A DNA stretch of 64,000 nucleotides from Rothia aerolata (GTDB taxonomy: Bacteria > Actinomycetota > Actinomycetes > Actinomycetales > Micrococcaceae): contig NZ_BMDC01000001.1 in NCBI RefSeq assembly GCF_014635585.1, positions 906,139 to 970,138 of the forward strand, in the 5' to 3' direction. How positions within the stretch are numbered: the stretch's first letter is position 1; each line of letters starts with the position of its first letter. Below, piece after piece: positions 11,253-30,953 of this stretch. The notes beneath the pieces were generated by a model, which was given only the letters and a program-made list of their open reading frames with translations, ran no database searches and had not been told where the DNA came from. A program made the translations under genes and the position numbers.

Positions 11253-11563
11253 TGAAGCGGCGACTCAATGAAACAGAGTCAACCGCACGGGCTGCCATGA
11301 TCGCCGAGTGGCCATTTTTATCCCGAAAATCGGAGAAAAACAGTATAAAAATGGCCACTCGGAGAAGCTCGGTGGTGACAAGGTACAAGTTTCTTTTTGC
11401 CAAGCCGTCTAAAGTACAAGCAGGGTCCCTGAGTACAAGACAATACTTGTACTCAGGGACCCTGCTTGTACTGTTGCTCTCTCAGCGGGAATCTATGTGT
11501 ACCGAGAGCCTATTTCAGCGCAAAATCCAGGAATGCTCTATACCGCAGTTGCTGAAATTTTGG
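11253..11563 (+). repeat. Palindrome-rich dispersed repeat, copy 1
   Basis: This copy shares an identical 52-bp segment (11253-11304) with 30683-30734, in inverted orientation. Weaker similarity continues to about 11563, including GGTACAAGTTTCTT, GTGTACCG and TGGAATTTT-like ends. It contains an 18-bp perfect inverted repeat (11304-11321 with 11345-11362, core GAGTGGCCATTTTTA) and a 27-bp perfect inverted repeat with a 6-nt loop (11413-11439 with 11446-11472). GTAC recurs at the bases of these hairpins. No reading frame in it looks protein-coding. Confidence 0.85.
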
Positions 11564-14380: not shown

Positions 14381-14500
14381 TGTTCCCCCGGTATGCTCTA
14401 TTAAATCTTTTCAACCAATGCCAATTAGGTCATTAGTTTATCTGAAAACAGAAATCAAGACAGACATAGTTTCGAGTGTTGAGATTTATAAAGCAGAAAT

Positions 14501-14536
14501 GAAGCGGAACCGCCCGGTTCGGGGCGATTCCGCTTC
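14501..14536 (-). terminator. galU terminator
   Basis: Arms GAAGCGGAACCGCC (14501-14514) and GGCGATTCCGCTTC (14523-14536) form a 14-bp stem with one G-U pair and an 8-nt loop. The hairpin lies 8 bp after the galU stop, and the minus strand continues ATTTCTGCTTT. Confidence 0.75.
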
Positions 14537-14544
14537 ACTGAGTT

Positions 14545-16406: not shown

Positions 16407-16495
16407 GGAACTTCGTATGCCGTGGGTATCCCCGCGCAACAGGCAGGCAGTCGCCAGCTGAGCCCTGCATAGCGGGTTCGCGAGACCGGGGAGGA

Positions 16496-16561
16496 GCGGA
16501 GGCGGGTGCAGCCGACTGGCTCGGGGCTGGCGTTAAGGGTGTCGGCTGCACCCGTCTCCGC
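16496..16561 (+). repeat. Conserved-loop hairpin repeat, copy A
   Basis: Left arm 16496-16516 and right arm 16541-16561 (21 bp, one G-T pair) close a 24-nt loop reading TGGCTCGGGGCTGGCG then TTAAGGGT. The inner stem GTGCAGCCGAC and the loop are shared with copies B and C at 22.1-22.3 kb, while the outer stem differs. It lies between fmdB and the convergent 69-residue ORF and could serve as a bidirectional terminator, though no T-run follows. Confidence 0.85.
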
Positions 16562-16598
16562 CCCGCCTAGTTCCTCAGCAAGATCTATGCCTCAGCCG

Positions 16599-16808
16599 CT
16601 ACTTCAGCTCGTGGTGCGGCGGCCTCTGCTCTTTGAGCCACTGGTCCCTGCTCACCGCGCCCTCTTCGCCAGCGGCGTCCTGCCTTCTCTCCCATTCGGG
16701 AAGGTGCGGTTCTTCCCCGGCGAAGGCCGAGCCCGAGGTCACCCTGCGGTGGCCTCTTCTTTTTTTGGGCTGGGGTGAGTAGCTACTGGATCGCTCGGTG
16801 TTACTCAT
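16599..16808 (-). CDS. Conserved small protein ending in a DQWLKEQRPPHH motif
   Basis: This 69-residue, polar, Arg/Glu-rich protein has no membrane span. Its C-terminus, SRDQWLKEQRPPHHELK, resembles the W-L-x-E-Q-R-P-P-H-W ending of short actinobacterial proteins of unknown function (from memory, so tentative). Its ATG overlaps the end of the 1287-residue helicase-like gene by 8 bp (ATGAGTAA), which argues for translational coupling and for a real gene. A role together with the large protein is possible but unproven. Confidence 0.65.
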   Translation of the reverse strand: MSNTERSSSYSPQPKKRRGHRRVTSGSAFAGEEPHLPEWERRQDAAGEEGAVSRDQWLKEQRPPHHELK

Positions 16809-19800
16809 GCGATTCTGCCTGCTTTTCCATGCCCAGGAACAGGGCCATGCGATCTGCCACTGCTTCGGGGTTTGAGAAGACCTCGATGGTCCACAGGGTC
16901 ATGTAGTTCCAGCCGGTTCGCGCCAGATAGTCGGGAATAAGGCGGGTTCGCTCGCGCACGCTGAGCCCGGTGAAGGCGGGCGAGCCGTCTGAGGTTGCCG
17001 CCAGGGGGAAGTTCAGTTCCGTGCTGCCACCGGTTCCCATCTTGCGCAGGCGCGGGCTGGGGGTTGAGCCTGCCATGAGCGACTGGTTTTCCGAGGAGGC
17101 TATCAGAGAGATTTCCTCGTTGTCGTGGGCGCGCAGGTGGATTCCGCGCTCGTTGAGTCGTGCCACCATGTCATTGAGGAGCCAGTCTCCCATGTCGACG
17201 GCGGCCACCTCGGTGTTTTCGAGGAACTCGTTGGCGGGCATGGTCTCGTTCAGTACCGAGGACTGTTCGGCATACTTGCGCTGCTGATAGGATTCATGCT
17301 CGCGCAGCAGGCGGTAGATGTCCAGGGCGCCGTTCTCCAGCAGGTTGGGGTCGAGGTCATCGGGCTGCACGCAGGCCATAAAGCGGGTGAGGTGGCGGGC
17401 GCGGGTCATGCCCAGCACAAAGTATTCGCGGCCGTGTTCTTCGGAGAGCTGGCCCATGGAGTGGTTGACCATGCCCTGCCTGCCCTTGCCGGTGCCCAGC
17501 GAGAAGATAATGACGTCGCGTTCCAGCCCCGAGGCGCGCGAGAGGTCTACCACGCGGAAGGGTTCGCGGGCGGAGCCGCTGAAGAAGGGGGCAATCTGCG
17601 GGTACTGGGGTAGCAGATTACGGACTTCCTCGGCGATGCGGCGGGCATGGCGCACGCTGGCGGTGACCACGGCAAGAGACTGGTTGGGGTTCTTGTAGGC
17701 GTGCTCGAGCACCCGCTGGGCCACCCGAGAGACTTCCACTCCCGGGGAATCCAGGTTGGAGTTGTCGCTGACCTTGCCGGTGGTGTCGATGTACTCGGCG
17801 ATGAAGGAGGAAACGTCGTCTGAGATTTCCTCAGCCCAGGGGAAGGAGCGCAGGGCGCCACCGTAGAAGTTGCGGTTGAGGTAGTTGAAGACCGCCGGGT
17901 CGACCGCGTGGTCAACCAGCAGGGAGAGCGAGCGGGAGGGCAGAATCTTTGCCAGCGCGCTGTAGGTGCTCTCAATGGGTTCCTCGTCGAGGGTTACTGA
18001 CTTCTTCAGGGCCGAGACCACGAAGGGGGCGGGGAAGCCGCTGTGGGGGTCGCCCATGGCCACTACCTGGTCTGCCCGGGTGATAGCGGGCAGGTTTGCA
18101 GCCAGCGGGGTGGTCTCAGAGTCCAGCAGAATCACGGCGTCAAAGCGCAGGGTTGAGGCGCCTAAGTGCCGGGTGAGGGAGAAGGGGCTGGCCACCCACA
18201 GCGGGTAAAGGGCCGTGGCCATGGACGGCGCCCGGTTGAGGACGGCGGTGAAGTCAAAGTTGTGCCCGCGCAGCTGGGATTTCAAATAGTTAGCCGATTC
18301 CGAATCCCGGTCAATGCGGGTGCGCCAGGTGCGCCCCACCGCAGCGTGCAGACGCGCGGGGGCGGACTCCATGTGGGCGGTATCCAGCCTGCGGAAGGAG
18401 GACTCGAGATCGCGCAGGGTGTCGCCGTCCAAAATCTCAATCTCATCGGCAGAGAGCATCATCTCCAGCGCGGTCTGCCACCAGGCAAGCTCTAGCTCGG
18501 CTCCCACCTTCTCTTCGCTCACCTGGCGAGCCCGCAGATCGCTCATCAGCTCCCCCAGACCGGCGGTGACCAGGCTGCGCTCTAGCTCCACCCGCTCGGG
18601 CAGGGTCGTGAGCAGGTAGCGGTCATCGCGCAGAGCCTGAAGGCGCCGCTTAATTGCAGAGAAGTCAGTCTGTAGAAAATCTGCGCCCTCGGGGCTGTCT
18701 TCAAGCACCAGCTGCAAACCGCTAAACTCCTGAACCAGCTCGGCCAGCTGGTCGCGCAGCTCTTGCAGGTTCTCGGGAATCTGTGGCTCCCGGGGAGATT
18801 CCGCCCAGTCAATCCACTCTTCGCGCTCGCCCTGGATCACCAGCAGGTACTCGTGCAAATCGCTAATGTGTACGCCGGGCAGGATGTATTCTTTGGCGGC
18901 TTTGCGCAGGCGGGAGCGCTGAATCGAACTCATCTCGATACCGTGCTCGCGGCGCCAGGAGCCACTGGCGGTGGCGGCGATGAGATCGGTGACCGGGCGG
19001 TCGTAAACATCGGGGCGGAAGCGGGTGAGGGTGGAATGCATGCGGGTCAGCAAGTCCAGCTGCTGCTCCCAGTCTTCCAGGGTGCGGCCCAGCCTCATGC
19101 CGGTTAGCTGGCACATCTGCTGTAGGGCAGAGACCATGCGGTCAAGGTTCTCAAGAAGAGAGAGCACCAGGGCGTGGGCGGCCGCTGTCTCTTCATCGTT
19201 GACCAGCTTGGCACCGCGCCAGGGAGAGAACCTGGTCGAGGACTTAAAGCCCGCCAGATGTGCCAGGCGCTTGAGTTGCTCGGCAGTCTCACCGCGCTCT
19301 ACCAGTGCATCCATGACGTCCCGGCTCAACCGCACCGAGGTGTTGGGAGCGTCGTCCTGCGCGGTCAGCGCCGCTAGGGTCTGTAGAGACTCATAGACCG
19401 AACAGCCCCAGCGGGACTCGGTAAACATCAGGGAGGAGGTGTGGTTAGCCAGCTTGGAACGCACCTCAACCAGCTGCTCCCAGACAGGGCGCATGTTGGG
19501 CTCAGCCACCTGCTCGTTGCGAACAATGGCCGAGATCATCAGCCGGCGTAGCTCTTCAGAGGTGTGGTCTTCCAGCAGGCTGAAGCTCAAATCCTCTAGC
19601 TTCTTGCTCTCCAAGAGCTGGCTGAACTCCTTGAGGGTGGAGGACTTCTCCCCCACCACCATCACCGACTTTCCCCGAGAAATCAGGGAGGAGGCAATAT
19701 TGGTTGCCGTGCGCAACGGGTCGGTTCCGGTAGCGGCGGTGACCACCAGCGAGTGGCCGGTGGTGGCCAGGTCGATAATTTCCTGGGCAGAAGAATCCGC

Positions 19801-20664
19801 ATCAAAAATCAGGGTTTCGTGCTCGGGCTGGCGGTCATCCAGCGGGAGCGCCGAATTCTTAATGTAGGCCTCGGGAAAGACCGGTTCGGAAGAGGGGTCT
19901 GCCAGACGCGCCAGATTGCGGACGAGCGGGGTAAAAGACTCCTCGGGCAGGGCGGCGGTATTTTCCTTGAGGTCGGCAAAGGTAGAAATCAGGTACTTCG
20001 CCTGAATCATCATGCCCGGCAGGTGCCCCACCGAGGTGCGCATCCGGTCAATCACCGGCTCGGGGTCTAGCTTAGACATCGAGTTCGCCAGCTGGGCGAC
20101 GTCCAGAGTCGAGAGGTCAACACCAAACTCTTTTTTCAGCTGGCGCACCATCGCCGGGTTGAGCTTAGCGTCGCCCGCCAGGCGAATTTCAAAATCCTTG
20201 CTGTTGGGGTGGGGTGTGATGGTCACCGGAGCCAGCAAAATCGGGGCAATAAAACGCTTCTCGCTCGCACCTGCCCGGCCGTGAATATCGCGGGAAAGCC
20301 AGGAGGCAGTACCTGCGGCAAAGTAGCCGGCAGAGAGCCCGTGGTGAGTCTCCAACTCAAAAATCTTGCTGCGCAGGGCGTGGGCCGCCACCATACCGGC
20401 GTCAAACTTCGCCCTGTCGTTGAGAATAGTAGACAGGCGGGTCTTGCGGCCCATCATCAGCTGCGCCAAACCCGAGGGGTTCGACTCGGTGATGTCGATG
20501 TGAACGTAGTCAACCTGGTTGAAATCCAGCAGAGCATCGGGACCCGTGTAGAAATCCATCTGCTGACTCCAGGCATCAAGACCAGCCTGAAGATTCTCAG
20601 AAGTATCCTGCTGCCCGGAAGCAGACGAGGTTAAGGAATCAGTACGGTCAGGGTGAATGTCCAC
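16801..20664 (-). CDS. Large DUF4011/superfamily-I helicase-like protein with degenerate motifs
   Basis: The 1287-residue protein begins with a DUF4011-like region (LLDFNQVDYVHIDITESNPS, about 46-64). An ATPase region follows in which the P-loop position reads VVTAATGTDPLRT (about 308-319), lacking the GK[ST] core. A DEAS-like motif is replaced by VILLDSETTPL, and the motif III position reads VVAMGDPHSGFP. The C-terminal helicase part is better kept: VVDLSRASGLERDVIIFSLG and GMTRARH (about 1080). The last ~120 residues (ERTRLIPDYLARTGWNYMTLWTIEVF) resemble the Vsr-like nuclease-fold domain (REase_MTES_1575) found in this family. It may bind nucleic acid without hydrolysing ATP. Function is unknown. 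Confidence 0.78.
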   Translation of the reverse strand: MDIHPDRTDSLTSSASGQQDTSENLQAGLDAWSQQMDFYTGPDALLDFNQVDYVHIDITESNPSGLAQLMMGRKTRLSTILNDRAKFDAGMVAAHALRSKIFELETHHGLSAGYFAAGTASWLSRDIHGRAGASEKRFIAPILLAPVTITPHPNSKDFEIRLAGDAKLNPAMVRQLKKEFGVDLSTLDVAQLANSMSKLDPEPVIDRMRTSVGHLPGMMIQAKYLISTFADLKENTAALPEESFTPLVRNLARLADPSSEPVFPEAYIKNSALPLDDRQPEHETLIFDADSSAQEIIDLATTGHSLVVTAATGTDPLRTATNIASSLISRGKSVMVVGEKSSTLKEFSQLLESKKLEDLSFSLLEDHTSEELRRLMISAIVRNEQVAEPNMRPVWEQLVEVRSKLANHTSSLMFTESRWGCSVYESLQTLAALTAQDDAPNTSVRLSRDVMDALVERGETAEQLKRLAHLAGFKSSTRFSPWRGAKLVNDEETAAAHALVLSLLENLDRMVSALQQMCQLTGMRLGRTLEDWEQQLDLLTRMHSTLTRFRPDVYDRPVTDLIAATASGSWRREHGIEMSSIQRSRLRKAAKEYILPGVHISDLHEYLLVIQGEREEWIDWAESPREPQIPENLQELRDQLAELVQEFSGLQLVLEDSPEGADFLQTDFSAIKRRLQALRDDRYLLTTLPERVELERSLVTAGLGELMSDLRARQVSEEKVGAELELAWWQTALEMMLSADEIEILDGDTLRDLESSFRRLDTAHMESAPARLHAAVGRTWRTRIDRDSESANYLKSQLRGHNFDFTAVLNRAPSMATALYPLWVASPFSLTRHLGASTLRFDAVILLDSETTPLAANLPAITRADQVVAMGDPHSGFPAPFVVSALKKSVTLDEEPIESTYSALAKILPSRSLSLLVDHAVDPAVFNYLNRNFYGGALRSFPWAEEISDDVSSFIAEYIDTTGKVSDNSNLDSPGVEVSRVAQRVLEHAYKNPNQSLAVVTASVRHARRIAEEVRNLLPQYPQIAPFFSGSAREPFRVVDLSRASGLERDVIIFSLGTGKGRQGMVNHSMGQLSEEHGREYFVLGMTRARHLTRFMACVQPDDLDPNLLENGALDIYRLLREHESYQQRKYAEQSSVLNETMPANEFLENTEVAAVDMGDWLLNDMVARLNERGIHLRAHDNEEISLIASSENQSLMAGSTPSPRLRKMGTGGSTELNFPLAATSDGSPAFTGLSVRERTRLIPDYLARTGWNYMTLWTIEVFSNPEAVADRMALFLGMEKQAESHE

Positions 20665-20768
20665 GTGCTAGCTACTCTTTCAGATACGCCGGCGGTCAAA
20701 AGTTCTTTCTACATCATACGGAAAACTTCAGGTGCAAGACACCGCGCAGACGCCGGGCGCAGTCATAA

Positions 20769-21221
20769 TTACAGCACCCGGTTAACCGCAATCAGAATAA
20801 CCATCAGAGACAGAAAGCCAATCAGAACCATACCGGGCAGAAGAACCCACTTCAGGCGCGGGGCAAAGGGGGCGGTGGGAGCTAGCCACAGGGAACGGGC
20901 AAAGAAATACGAGAGCAGGGCACCGATGAGGTTGCCCACTAGCAGCTGCTGAACCACAGCGTAGATTCCAAAAACCTTCTCGGTCTTCTCGTTCTCGCTG
21001 CTGGCACCCTTGAGCATACCCGCCATAATCAGGGTCATGCAGGAGGTCAAAAAGGCAATCGCCATGGTGGGTTCATTCAGCACCTCGCGCAAGTCAACCG
21101 AGGCGGTCTGCGACATCATCAGGGCATAGCCCATAAATAGAAAGGGGCTCACCAGCCAATAAATAAAGAGCCACTTGCGCAGCTTGTCAGAGTTATTCAG
21201 AAATGCCCACACAGCATTCAC
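20769..21221 (-). CDS. Four-span membrane protein, function unknown
   Basis: This 150-residue protein has four hydrophobic segments (WLFIYWLVSPFLFMGYALM, AIAFLTSCMTLIMAGML, VVQQLLVGNLIGALLSYFFA and VLLPGMVLIGFLSLMVILIAV) with a short acidic loop (SSENEKTEKV). I do not recognise the family. Its start lies 2 bp after the stop of the RpiR regulator, so the two are co-transcribed, possibly with the upstream PTS gene. It could be an accessory membrane protein of the alpha-glucoside locus. Confidence 0.7.
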   Translation of the reverse strand: MNAVWAFLNNSDKLRKWLFIYWLVSPFLFMGYALMMSQTASVDLREVLNEPTMAIAFLTSCMTLIMAGMLKGASSENEKTEKVFGIYAVVQQLLVGNLIGALLSYFFARSLWLAPTAPFAPRLKWVLLPGMVLIGFLSLMVILIAVNRVL

Positions 21222-21223
21222 AA

Positions 21224-21982
21224 CTAATCCTCTTTTTCTACAAAATCTATATACTGGCGCACCACATAATCCAGCAGCACATTCAGCGCCACAAAAGAGT
21301 GGTAGGCCGACTTACTGGCGGGTAACCGGGTGGGCGTGGACTCATAGTGCAGGGCATAATCCGCAGTCGATGCCATAAAATTCACCGACTGGGCGGTAAC
21401 CGCCACCATGGGAATCTTCCGCAGAGACAGGGCCCGCACCGTCTCAATCACAGACTCGGTATTGCCCGAGAGCGAAACTATCACCACGACGTCCTGGGCC
21501 GTCATCACCGAGGTAGAACCCGCAAACTCCGACTTGGCGGGAATCACGTGGGTGAACTTACCGCAGGCCAGCAGCGACTTAGCGAACTCCTGAATGGCGT
21601 TGCGCTGGGCATAGCCGGTACCAAAAAGATAGACGGTCTTAGCCTGGTGAATCTTCTCCAAAATAGGAGTGAGATCGGTATGCTCAAGATTCTGTAGGGT
21701 CTTGAGAATGTCGTCTTTACCCGAGCTGACAAAGTCGGGGTTTTTGGGCTGCGCATTCGCCAGAGAATTCTTCACAAAATACTTCAGCTCGGCAAAACCA
21801 GAGAAATCCAGTTTCTTAGTCAGGCGAATAATGCTGGAAGTCGAGGTAAAGGTTTTGTGCGCCAGGGAAGAAATGGTGGACTCGGCAACGAATTCTTCGT
21901 TTTCCAGCATGAAGGCCAAAATTTCACGCTCGGTTTCGCTGAATCGATGCTGATGGGCATTGACCAGAGACTGTAAATCCAC
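21224..21982 (-). CDS. RpiR/MurR-family transcriptional regulator of the alpha-glucoside locus
   Basis: The N-terminal HTH_6 domain covers about residues 1-75 (FSETEREILAFMLENEEFVA, then TSSIIRLTKKLDFSGFAELKYFVK). The C-terminal SIS sugar-phosphate-binding domain has VYLFGTGYAQRNAIQEFAKSL and VVIVSLSGNTESVIETVRAL. The GTG at 21982 is chosen because GGAG precedes it by a few bases; the open frame extends upstream only through repeat DNA. Neighbours (PTS IIBC, MapP, glucosidases) suggest it senses a phosphorylated alpha-glucoside. A perfect TGTACGTACA palindrome 20 bp upstream (22004-22013) may be an autoregulatory site. Confidence 0.88.
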   Translation of the reverse strand: MDLQSLVNAHQHRFSETEREILAFMLENEEFVAESTISSLAHKTFTSTSSIIRLTKKLDFSGFAELKYFVKNSLANAQPKNPDFVSSGKDDILKTLQNLEHTDLTPILEKIHQAKTVYLFGTGYAQRNAIQEFAKSLLACGKFTHVIPAKSEFAGSTSVMTAQDVVVIVSLSGNTESVIETVRALSLRKIPMVAVTAQSVNFMASTADYALHYESTPTRLPASKSAYHSFVALNVLLDYVVRQYIDFVEKED

Positions 21983-22085
21983 GAAGGCTCCTAGCGCAAA
22001 GTCTGTACGTACACCATAGATACTACATGTTTTGCGGCTAGGAGCCTTTGCTGGAAGGCAGCTGCGAAGGCGCCGTTGCTCGTTC

Positions 22086-22154
22086 GGCGGAGTACCGTGC
22101 AGCCGACATCCCTTAACGCCAGCCCCGAGCCAGTCGGCTGCACGGTACTCCGCC
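22086..22154 (-). repeat. Conserved-loop hairpin repeat, copy B
   Basis: Perfect 22-bp arms (22086-22107 and 22133-22154) enclose a 25-nt loop that is the complement of copy A's loop apart from one extra base. The inner stem GTGCAGCCGAC is identical to copy A; the outer stem (GGAGTACC) differs but pairs fully. Confidence 0.88.
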
Positions 22155-22177
22155 TCCGCGTGAGCGACGCTGACGGA

Positions 22178-22300
22178 GAGGACGCCGCCTCCGTCAACTG
22201 GCATCGGGATGAAGCGAAACGAGTGCGAGCTAGCGAGCACTCAAGAGTGAGCGGAATCGCGAAGCGTGCGTTTAAGGGAGGTTGACGGGGCGGCGTCCTC
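22178..22300 (-). repeat. Conserved-loop hairpin repeat, copy C, with enlarged loop
   Basis: Arms 22178-22198 and 22281-22300 pair perfectly except for one bulged T. The loop flanks, TGGCATCGGGATG on one side and GCGTTTAAGGGA on the other, resemble the two halves of the A/B loop. About 55 bp of extra sequence, itself containing a GAGTGC/GCACTC hairpin, lies between them. Confidence 0.7.
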
Positions 22301-22390
22301 GCAGTCGCAGACTCGGCTGACCGATACCCCGCCGAACGCACGCCGTCCTTCTACCGGAGCGTACCCGCCGAGCGAGCGGCGTCCTAACGG

Positions 22391-29067: not shown

Positions 29068-29124
29068 CGAGAGGCCAATTTTTTACCGTTTTTCTCTCAA
29101 AAACGGTAAAAAATTGGCCTCTCG
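29068..29124. repeat. 26-bp perfect inverted repeat, GAG-GGCC hairpin type
   Basis: Arms 29068-29093 and 29099-29124 are exact complements with a 5-nt CTCTC loop; the outer part reads CGAGAGGCCAATTTTTTA. The outer sequence resembles the GAGTGGCCATTTTTA hairpin inside repeat copy 1 and copy 2. It lies between the VOC gene and the MFS gene and may act as a terminator, or reduce translation of the MFS gene 13 bp downstream. Confidence 0.85.
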
Positions 29125-30395: not shown

Positions 30396-30734
30396 TAAAA
30401 TTCCAGCACCAGCGATATGGGCCAGTCATGGATTATCCGCGGAAACAAGCTCCCGGTACACAAAGATTCCTGTAGGTAGACCTCAGGTACAAGCAAGTTC
30501 CCGTTAAGAGGCCAAAGTACACCTGTATTCCCTGGGTACACATCTAGATGTGTACCCAGGGAATACAGGTGTACTGACGCCAGCCAGACAAGAAGAAACT
30601 TGTACCTTGCCCCCACCGAGTTTTCCCGAGAGGCCACTTTTATACCGCAAACCAGCCAAAAACAGTCTAAAAATGGCCACTCGCGATCATGGCAGCCCGT
30701 GCGGTTGACTCTGTTTCATTGAGTCGCCGCTTCA
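30396..30734 (-). repeat. Palindrome-rich dispersed repeat, copy 2 (inverted relative to copy 1)
   Basis: This copy shares 52 identical bases (30683-30734) with 11253-11304 and is similar across its length. Inside are a 60-bp perfect palindrome (30516-30575), and an imperfect hairpin of arms 30627-30643 and 30668-30683 around CGAGNGGCCANTTTTA. GTAC occurs at least seven times at arm boundaries. The palindrome's arms differ from copy 1's at about nine of 27 positions, each difference matched on the other arm. Confidence 0.85.
30516..30575. repeat. 60-bp perfect palindrome
   Basis: The half AGTACACCTGTATTCCCTGG continuing to 30545 is exactly complementary to 30546-30575, with CTAGA-type centre and no spacer. 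Perfect palindromes of this length are usually unstable in bacteria because of hairpin-cleaving nucleases. Confidence 0.92.
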
Positions 30735-30896: not shown

Positions 30897-30953
30897 CGAG
30901 CGGTGGATTTTAGGCTTAAATCTGTCGATTTTAAGCTTAAAATCCACCGCTCG
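30897..30953. repeat. 24-bp inverted repeat hairpin
   Basis: Arms CGAGCGGTGGATTTTAGG... (30897-30920) and 30930-30953 pair with one G-T over a 9-nt loop. A fragment of one arm, GAGCGGTGTATTTTAG, occurs at 30302. It lies between the repeat block and the guaA terminator. Confidence 0.8.

Follow-up and report, generated by a model that had tools for sequence, protein, structure and literature searches.

Three hairpins in a 64,000-nucleotide stretch of Rothia DNA (hereafter the window) raise the question of what kind of element keeps its loop while the stem beneath it changes, and whether such an element is best regarded as a terminator, as a mobile repeat or as a structure that is recognised by a factor of the host. 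The initial annotation had described the three, referred to here as copies A, B and C, as a conserved loop on covarying stems and as the reverse of a simple terminator.

Hairpin copies in the window, the genome and the genus

Copy A (16490–16567, + strand) lies between convergent genes, with an FmdB-like zinc-ribbon gene upstream (PF09723; 16227–16406, + strand) and, facing it, a − strand ORF that ends at 16801. Its 27-nt arms (16490–16516 and 16541–16567) form 24 pairs with three mismatches (89% complementarity) around the conserved loop of subfamily S1, TGGCTCGGGGCTGGCGTTAAGGGT (16517–16540, + strand). Copy B (22086–22154, − strand) carries an S1 loop (22108–22132) on a perfect 22-bp stem (arms 22086–22107 and 22133–22154, 100% complementarity). 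Copy C (22172–22306, + strand) belongs to subfamily S4: its arms (about 22172–22198 and 22281–22306) form 24 pairs with one bulge and two mismatches, and enclose a nested loop of 82 nt (22199–22280, + strand; TGGCATCGGGATGAAGCG...GCGTTTAAGGGAG) with the same layout as the perfect S4 copy G000:C1:774518 (774494–774621). All three are real hairpins, as A and B fold far below the energies of dinucleotide shuffles (z about −7.3), and z amounts to −4.8 on the + strand and −5.8 on the − strand for C. The claim that they share one loop could be upheld in part: A and B contain the same S1 16-mer, TGGCTCGGGGCTGGCG, which occurs exactly twice in the window (16517–16532 on the + strand, in A; 22117–22132 on the − strand, in B), while the loop of C, which starts with TGGCATCGGG and ends with GCGTTTAAGGGAG, lacks this 16-mer and represents a different, longer and related subfamily.

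Copies B and C are spaced by 17 nt with their 5′ sides facing each other, and constitute one of three head-to-head pairs (window 22083–22306, G000:C1:600904–601079 and G000:C1:834315–834485), each of which consists of one S1 copy and one S2 or S4 copy about 17–24 nt apart. The 3′ end of a PTS EIICB gene (PF02378 and PF00367; 22391–24034, − strand) faces C and B, and downstream of B lies an RpiR-type regulator gene (PF01418 and PF01380; 21224–21982, − strand), which probably starts at the GTG at 21982, preceded by AGGAG, its listed start at 22240 presumably being over-extended. Other hairpins are also present in the window. Those at 11301–11365, 29068–29124 and 30897–30953 have a partly shared foot (CGAG.GG..ATTTT) and are probably the first repeat family of the initial annotation; perfect palindromes with arms of 27–30 bp and spacers of 6 and 0 nt, both starting with AGTACA, are located at 11413–11472 and 30516–30575; and an arm of the short-loop hairpin at 14500–14537 shares GATTCCGCTTCACT with the arm of the S2 copy G000:C1:93685, which is about the level of chance for 14-mers.

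In the 2.46-Mb genome as a whole the exact 16-mer was found 13 times, plus two matches with one mismatch, against none for a reversed control pattern, and 13 of the 16-mer matches fold into clean hairpins that have their loop in common and differ in the stem. Covariance model R1 identified 58 copies at E < 1e-5 and model R2 identified 61 at E ≤ 1e-3, giving a total of about 60 copies with E from 1e-20 to 1e-5; since the model searches score the best 135–150 first-look candidates per genome, all such copy counts are lower bounds. The anticipated further copies are therefore clearly present, both in this genome and in relatives: in the model search, 15 other Rothia genomes yielded 1 to 24 copies, in weaker sets, and none were found in 19. 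The family is restricted to this genus in the data searched, as an exact-pattern scan of 84,980 genomes returned 27 matches, every one of them in Rothia, and the other 31 genera of the family that were sampled gave no match to the hairpin model. Comparison with the Rfam covariance models produced chance, sub-threshold matches only and hence no curated family, no literature on such repeats in Rothia was found among openly licensed papers, and no match pointed to carriage of the hairpin by phages or plasmids. Two IMG/VR matches to a loop 18-mer were discarded, since the sequence on either side forms no matching hairpin and they appear to be due to chance.

Modular loops on covarying stems

Two main loops recur, namely S1 (TGGCTCGGGGCTGGCGTTAAGGGT, as in A and B) and S2 (TGGCATCGGGGCTGGCGTTTAAGGGAG), the latter being the commonest. 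In S3 loops the TTTA part is swapped for a second small hairpin (GTGAATCGC...GCGAG), and in S4 loops (copy C and the perfect C1:774518 copy) a long insert carries its own inner hairpin. Loop length is 24–27 nt in the short forms and reaches 82 nt in the nested forms, which occur frequently in R. endophytica and R. nasimurium. The 57 resolved copies of the genome have a median of 23 pairs, with neither mismatch nor bulge in 13 of them; the innermost pairs are nearly fixed, usually as AAC/GTT or GAC/GTC, and the closing C–G pair is present in 23 of 23 aligned copies. At the foot of the stem, A at position −1 and G at position +1 were each observed in 27 of 41 copies of this genome, and A stands opposite G in 20 of these 41 and in 7 of 25 copies from relatives. 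This A·G foot was rejected as a diagnostic tag, however, since it is also found in unrelated Rothia hairpins (A·G in 11 and C·T in 9 of 62). At five loci (L031, L045, L017, L036 and L097), tandem partial copies comprising the 5′ arm and the first half of the loop are located directly upstream of a full hairpin, which suggests slippage between two CTGGC repeats in the loop.

The covariation score of the stems is 0.757, compared with 0.214 for shuffles and 0.15–0.22 for slid structures in which the pairing partner was shifted. Pairing cells amount to 84.6% as against 54% after shuffling, none of 500 shuffles reaching the observed value, and 24 of 25 pairs display changes on both sides among the 23 aligned copies. 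The proposal of a conserved loop on covarying stems is thereby supported across about 60 copies and those of related species, far above both controls, and this combination makes it likely, as judged from the sequences, that the loop is recognised by a protein or an RNA. Among orthologous copies of the R. nasimurium group, 25 changes were counted over 828 stem sites and two over 534 loop sites, the latter count being biased downward because it was mainly through the loop that these loci were identified.

Of 57 left arms, 22 have a 10-mer in common with another copy, and the remaining 35 have no detectable relation. Several members of one arm group (CAGTCTGAG... / CAGCCCGAG..., with GGCCAAC) have a one-base bulge in common, and this group is clearly a single lineage; furthermore, the arms of S2 copies have a mean identity of 6.9 of 17, compared with 5.2 for shuffled arms. 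The shared arm 10-mers, the common bulge and the S2 arm identity above that of shuffled arms thus indicate that some of the copies arose by duplication of entire hairpins, which then diverged with compensation, this history apparently having been erased for the rest. The 35 copies whose arms have no detectable relation despite nearly identical loops tell against such copying, although they too may have arisen by it.

Gene ends, empty sites and strand bias

The hairpins are placed preferentially at the 3′ ends of genes. Among 61 placements, 33 are in tandem gaps, 20 in convergent and five in divergent gaps, two (one being B) are inside over-long ORF calls, and there is one other. The background for comparison comprised 409 intergenic gaps with a length of 40 nt or more (67 convergent, 256 tandem and 86 divergent). 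It was compiled from the window plus two stretches of 400 kb from genomes of the R. nasimurium group, and hence mostly from relatives, with genes called by a simple method based on codon bias. Relative to this background, convergent gaps are enriched among the placements (p = 0.002) and divergent gaps depleted (p = 0.03). Within tandem gaps, the median distance of the hairpin to the stop codon upstream is 25 nt, compared with 113 nt to the start that follows (p = 0.0003). The U-tract of a terminator is missing, as the T content of the 8 nt after the stem is 20% and 33% on the two strands, and no more than 1 and 5 of the 57 copies, respectively, have at least five T there. The description as the reverse of a simple terminator was only half right, since the copies occupy terminator positions; the suggestion that copies at gene 3′ ends may act as terminators agrees with their placement after stops, but not with the missing U-tract.

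At the 3′ end of fmdB, the site of copy A, the majority of the other Rothia have a long hairpin that is unrelated to it, in many cases with a U-tract. Site T (L203–L214) indicates that hairpins at gene ends turn over fast within Rothia: an S1 hairpin is present in one R. nasimurium-group genome and a perfect 25–31-bp terminator-like hairpin in nine relatives, the perfect short-loop hairpins show clear compensatory changes among related Rothia, and more distant species carry still other, unrelated hairpins. Site X is occupied by S1 in five species and by S3 in five species.

Clean presence/absence sites were identified both within the R. nasimurium group, where 400 kb were compared between a pair of genomes that are 89.5% identical, and between R. 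endophytica and a close relative. The intervals with and without the hairpin measure 100 and 2 nt at G020:2041342, 155 and 11 nt at G020:2019530, 157 and 12 nt at G027:2024599, and 117 and 3 nt at about G033:C5:109971; gain and loss both fit such a two-genome comparison. At most of the empty sites neither hairpin arm was found, so that both arms are new, which argues against insertion of the loop alone and against copying of the target. In R. endophytica (L236:9971–10089), 7 nt of the flank (ACCCATT) recur in inverted form (AATGGGT) inside the insert. Possible direct repeats, 5-nt ACCCA at one site and 9-nt CTAGAAGTC at another, differ between sites, and no consistent target duplication was seen across the compared sites. 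A 77-nt hairpin insert at G027:C4:1984529 (in L267), absent from G020, is bounded by the direct repeat CTAGAAGTC, which points either to duplication of the target or to a deletion between the repeats.

The RAYT-like (Y1) gene for which a search had been proposed is absent: Y1_Tnp (PF01797) has no match in this genome and is found in 3 of 35 Rothia, while 13 of the 16 genomes with the repeat lack it, with no correlation between repeat and transposase. A link to reverse transcriptase was likewise dismissed, the gene being absent from this genome and present in few Rothia, and neither of these two candidate mobilising enzymes is thus encoded here.

With respect to tandem genes, the orientation of the hairpins is random (13 in the same and 20 in the opposite direction, p = 0.30). 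G·U pairs and A·C mismatches are expected to be equally frequent under no constraint. On the loop strand, however, G·U exceeds A·C by 32 to 13 in this genome and by 27 to 9 in 28 distinct hairpins from relatives (59 to 22 for both sets together, combined p = 5e-5), whereas counts taken in gene direction stand at 15 to 19. The bias is thus tied to the strand of the element itself and not to transcription. It fits a loop-strand hairpin that exists as single-stranded DNA, or a mutational bias of the exposed loop strand; alternatively, its source may be an RNA that is transcribed from the loop strand without regard to neighbouring genes. No replication-strand preference was detected, local GC skew being alike for + and − copies (p = 0.15).

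Readings of the hairpin family

With a probability of about 0.55, we favour the reading that these hairpins constitute a Rothia-specific dispersed extragenic palindrome in a terminator-like position, the loop strand of which is recognised by a putative factor while the stem need only pair. Whole hairpins would be copied to new sites, the loop strand would be recognised as a single-stranded hairpin by a putative trans-acting Rothia factor, and the stems would then drift freely as long as pairing is kept. Template-switch copying between the arms perhaps keeps them matched, which is plausible in view of the homogenisation of inverted-repeat arms by template switching and of quasipalindrome template-switch mutation, as described in PMC8604942 and PMC7202029, respectively. 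At gene ends, the hairpins would probably serve as, or be tolerated as, bidirectional transcript-end hairpins without U-tract. Points against this reading are that neither a mobilising enzyme nor a consistent target duplication was found, and that 35 of 57 arms are unrelated to those of any other copy.

A possible, if doubtful, alternative is a 3′-UTR element at the RNA level, functional and not mobile, the loop of which is read by a Rothia RNA-binding protein or sRNA with effects on termination or mRNA stability. The location just after stops, the enrichment in convergent gaps, the covariation combined with the G·U bias of the loop strand, and the presence of copy A where most relatives have a long terminator-like hairpin are all consistent with it. 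However, a loop that is read in mRNA should face one way, and thus the random orientation to the upstream gene argues against such reading, as does the loss of the G·U bias in transcript direction. It is improbable that the copies are ordinary intrinsic terminators whose loop, itself without a role, is shared through gene conversion or recent duplication: their position, and the swapping of unrelated long hairpins at the same sites across Rothia, would suit this explanation, but the U-tracts are missing, and ordinary terminators would not be expected to combine the same loop of 24–27 nt with unrelated stems.

Explanations based on mobility or on targeting by the arms were also weighed. That the family represents a new class of hairpin, mobile or self-propagating, whose heritable recognition part is the loop rather than the ends, with a Rothia enzyme binding the loop strand as ssDNA and with copying that renews or homogenises the arms, seems rather unlikely; if true, such renewal would allow the copies to keep a perfect stem of changing sequence. 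A snap-back or loop-only insertion, with the new arm copied from flanking DNA or the loop entering an existing hairpin, could produce identical loops on unrelated perfect stems, and the inverted flank in the R. endophytica insert is one suggestive case; it is nevertheless very improbable, given that, among the other presence/absence sites examined, neither arm was found in the empty site. A REP/RAYT system, in which a Y1 (HUH) REP transposase moves miniature elements, is brought to mind by the many extragenic palindromes at gene 3′ ends and by the head-to-head pairs at three sites (B–C, 600904–601003 and 834315–834408), as for REPs (PMC3733652), yet this explanation is largely refuted by the distribution of Y1_Tnp reported above and by a foot, stem and loop unlike those of REPs. 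Finally, arms of about 22 bp that are near perfect and variable on a constant loop are reminiscent of guide-like (shRNA- or spacer-like) hairpins directed at phages or other genes. This idea is unsupported and has next to no probability, since 22 arms searched against 50,697 phage records gave one chance 20-mer only (E = 9), and of 721 14-mers from the arms, 5 were found again within 255 kb of DNA of the same genome, which is about chance.

With about sixty copies in which the loop is kept and the stem wanders while remaining paired, the family provides a natural system in which to examine how near-perfect palindromes arise, persist and spread, how a loop can be recognised irrespective of its stem, and how gene-end hairpins turn over between species.

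Comparison with known systems

REP-type palindromic repeats of bacteria are defined by a conserved foot and stem and by a short, changeable loop. The Rothia family displays the inverse anatomy, with a stem of about 22 bp that is free in sequence but paired, innermost pairs that are nearly fixed, and a conserved and modular loop. REPs of the GTAG and CGTC super-families are extragenic, are located 3′ of genes, form head-to-head pairs, contain G·T pairs in their stems, and have stems of 6–13 bp and loops mostly of 2–5 nt (PMC3733652). The Rothia hairpins are similarly dispersed and extragenic, mostly 3′ of genes in convergent and tandem gaps, and likewise occur in head-to-head pairs with G·T pairs in their stems. 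Conversely, their foot lacks a GTAG or CGTC consensus (41 copies of this genome), their stem of about 23 bp varies in sequence within one genome, their loop is long (at least 24 nt), conserved and modular, and the genome has no RAYT. The Rothia hairpin thus works like a REP-type gene-end palindrome and is not a REP, from which it departs in tag, stem, loop size and transposase.

The hairpins resemble intrinsic terminators in being stable, GC-rich and located shortly after stop codons, and in occupying an orthologous site of relatives' terminator-like hairpins, but differ from them in the missing U-tract, the conserved loop of 24–82 nt and the freedom of orientation. Like MITEs, they are short, non-coding, and present or absent at orthologous sites; in contrast to MITEs, the conserved part is the centre and not the ends, the outer arms differ between copies, there are neither conserved terminal inverted repeats nor a consistent target duplication, and no parent transposon was found in a non-exhaustive search. 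PMC2267715 describes stem-loop sequence families, in which intergenic stem-loop repeats are grouped by shared sequence and common structure; on this description, the Rothia hairpins are comparable as a family of stem-loop repeats in intergenic DNA, and differ in that it is the loop that is kept while the sequence of the stem is free.
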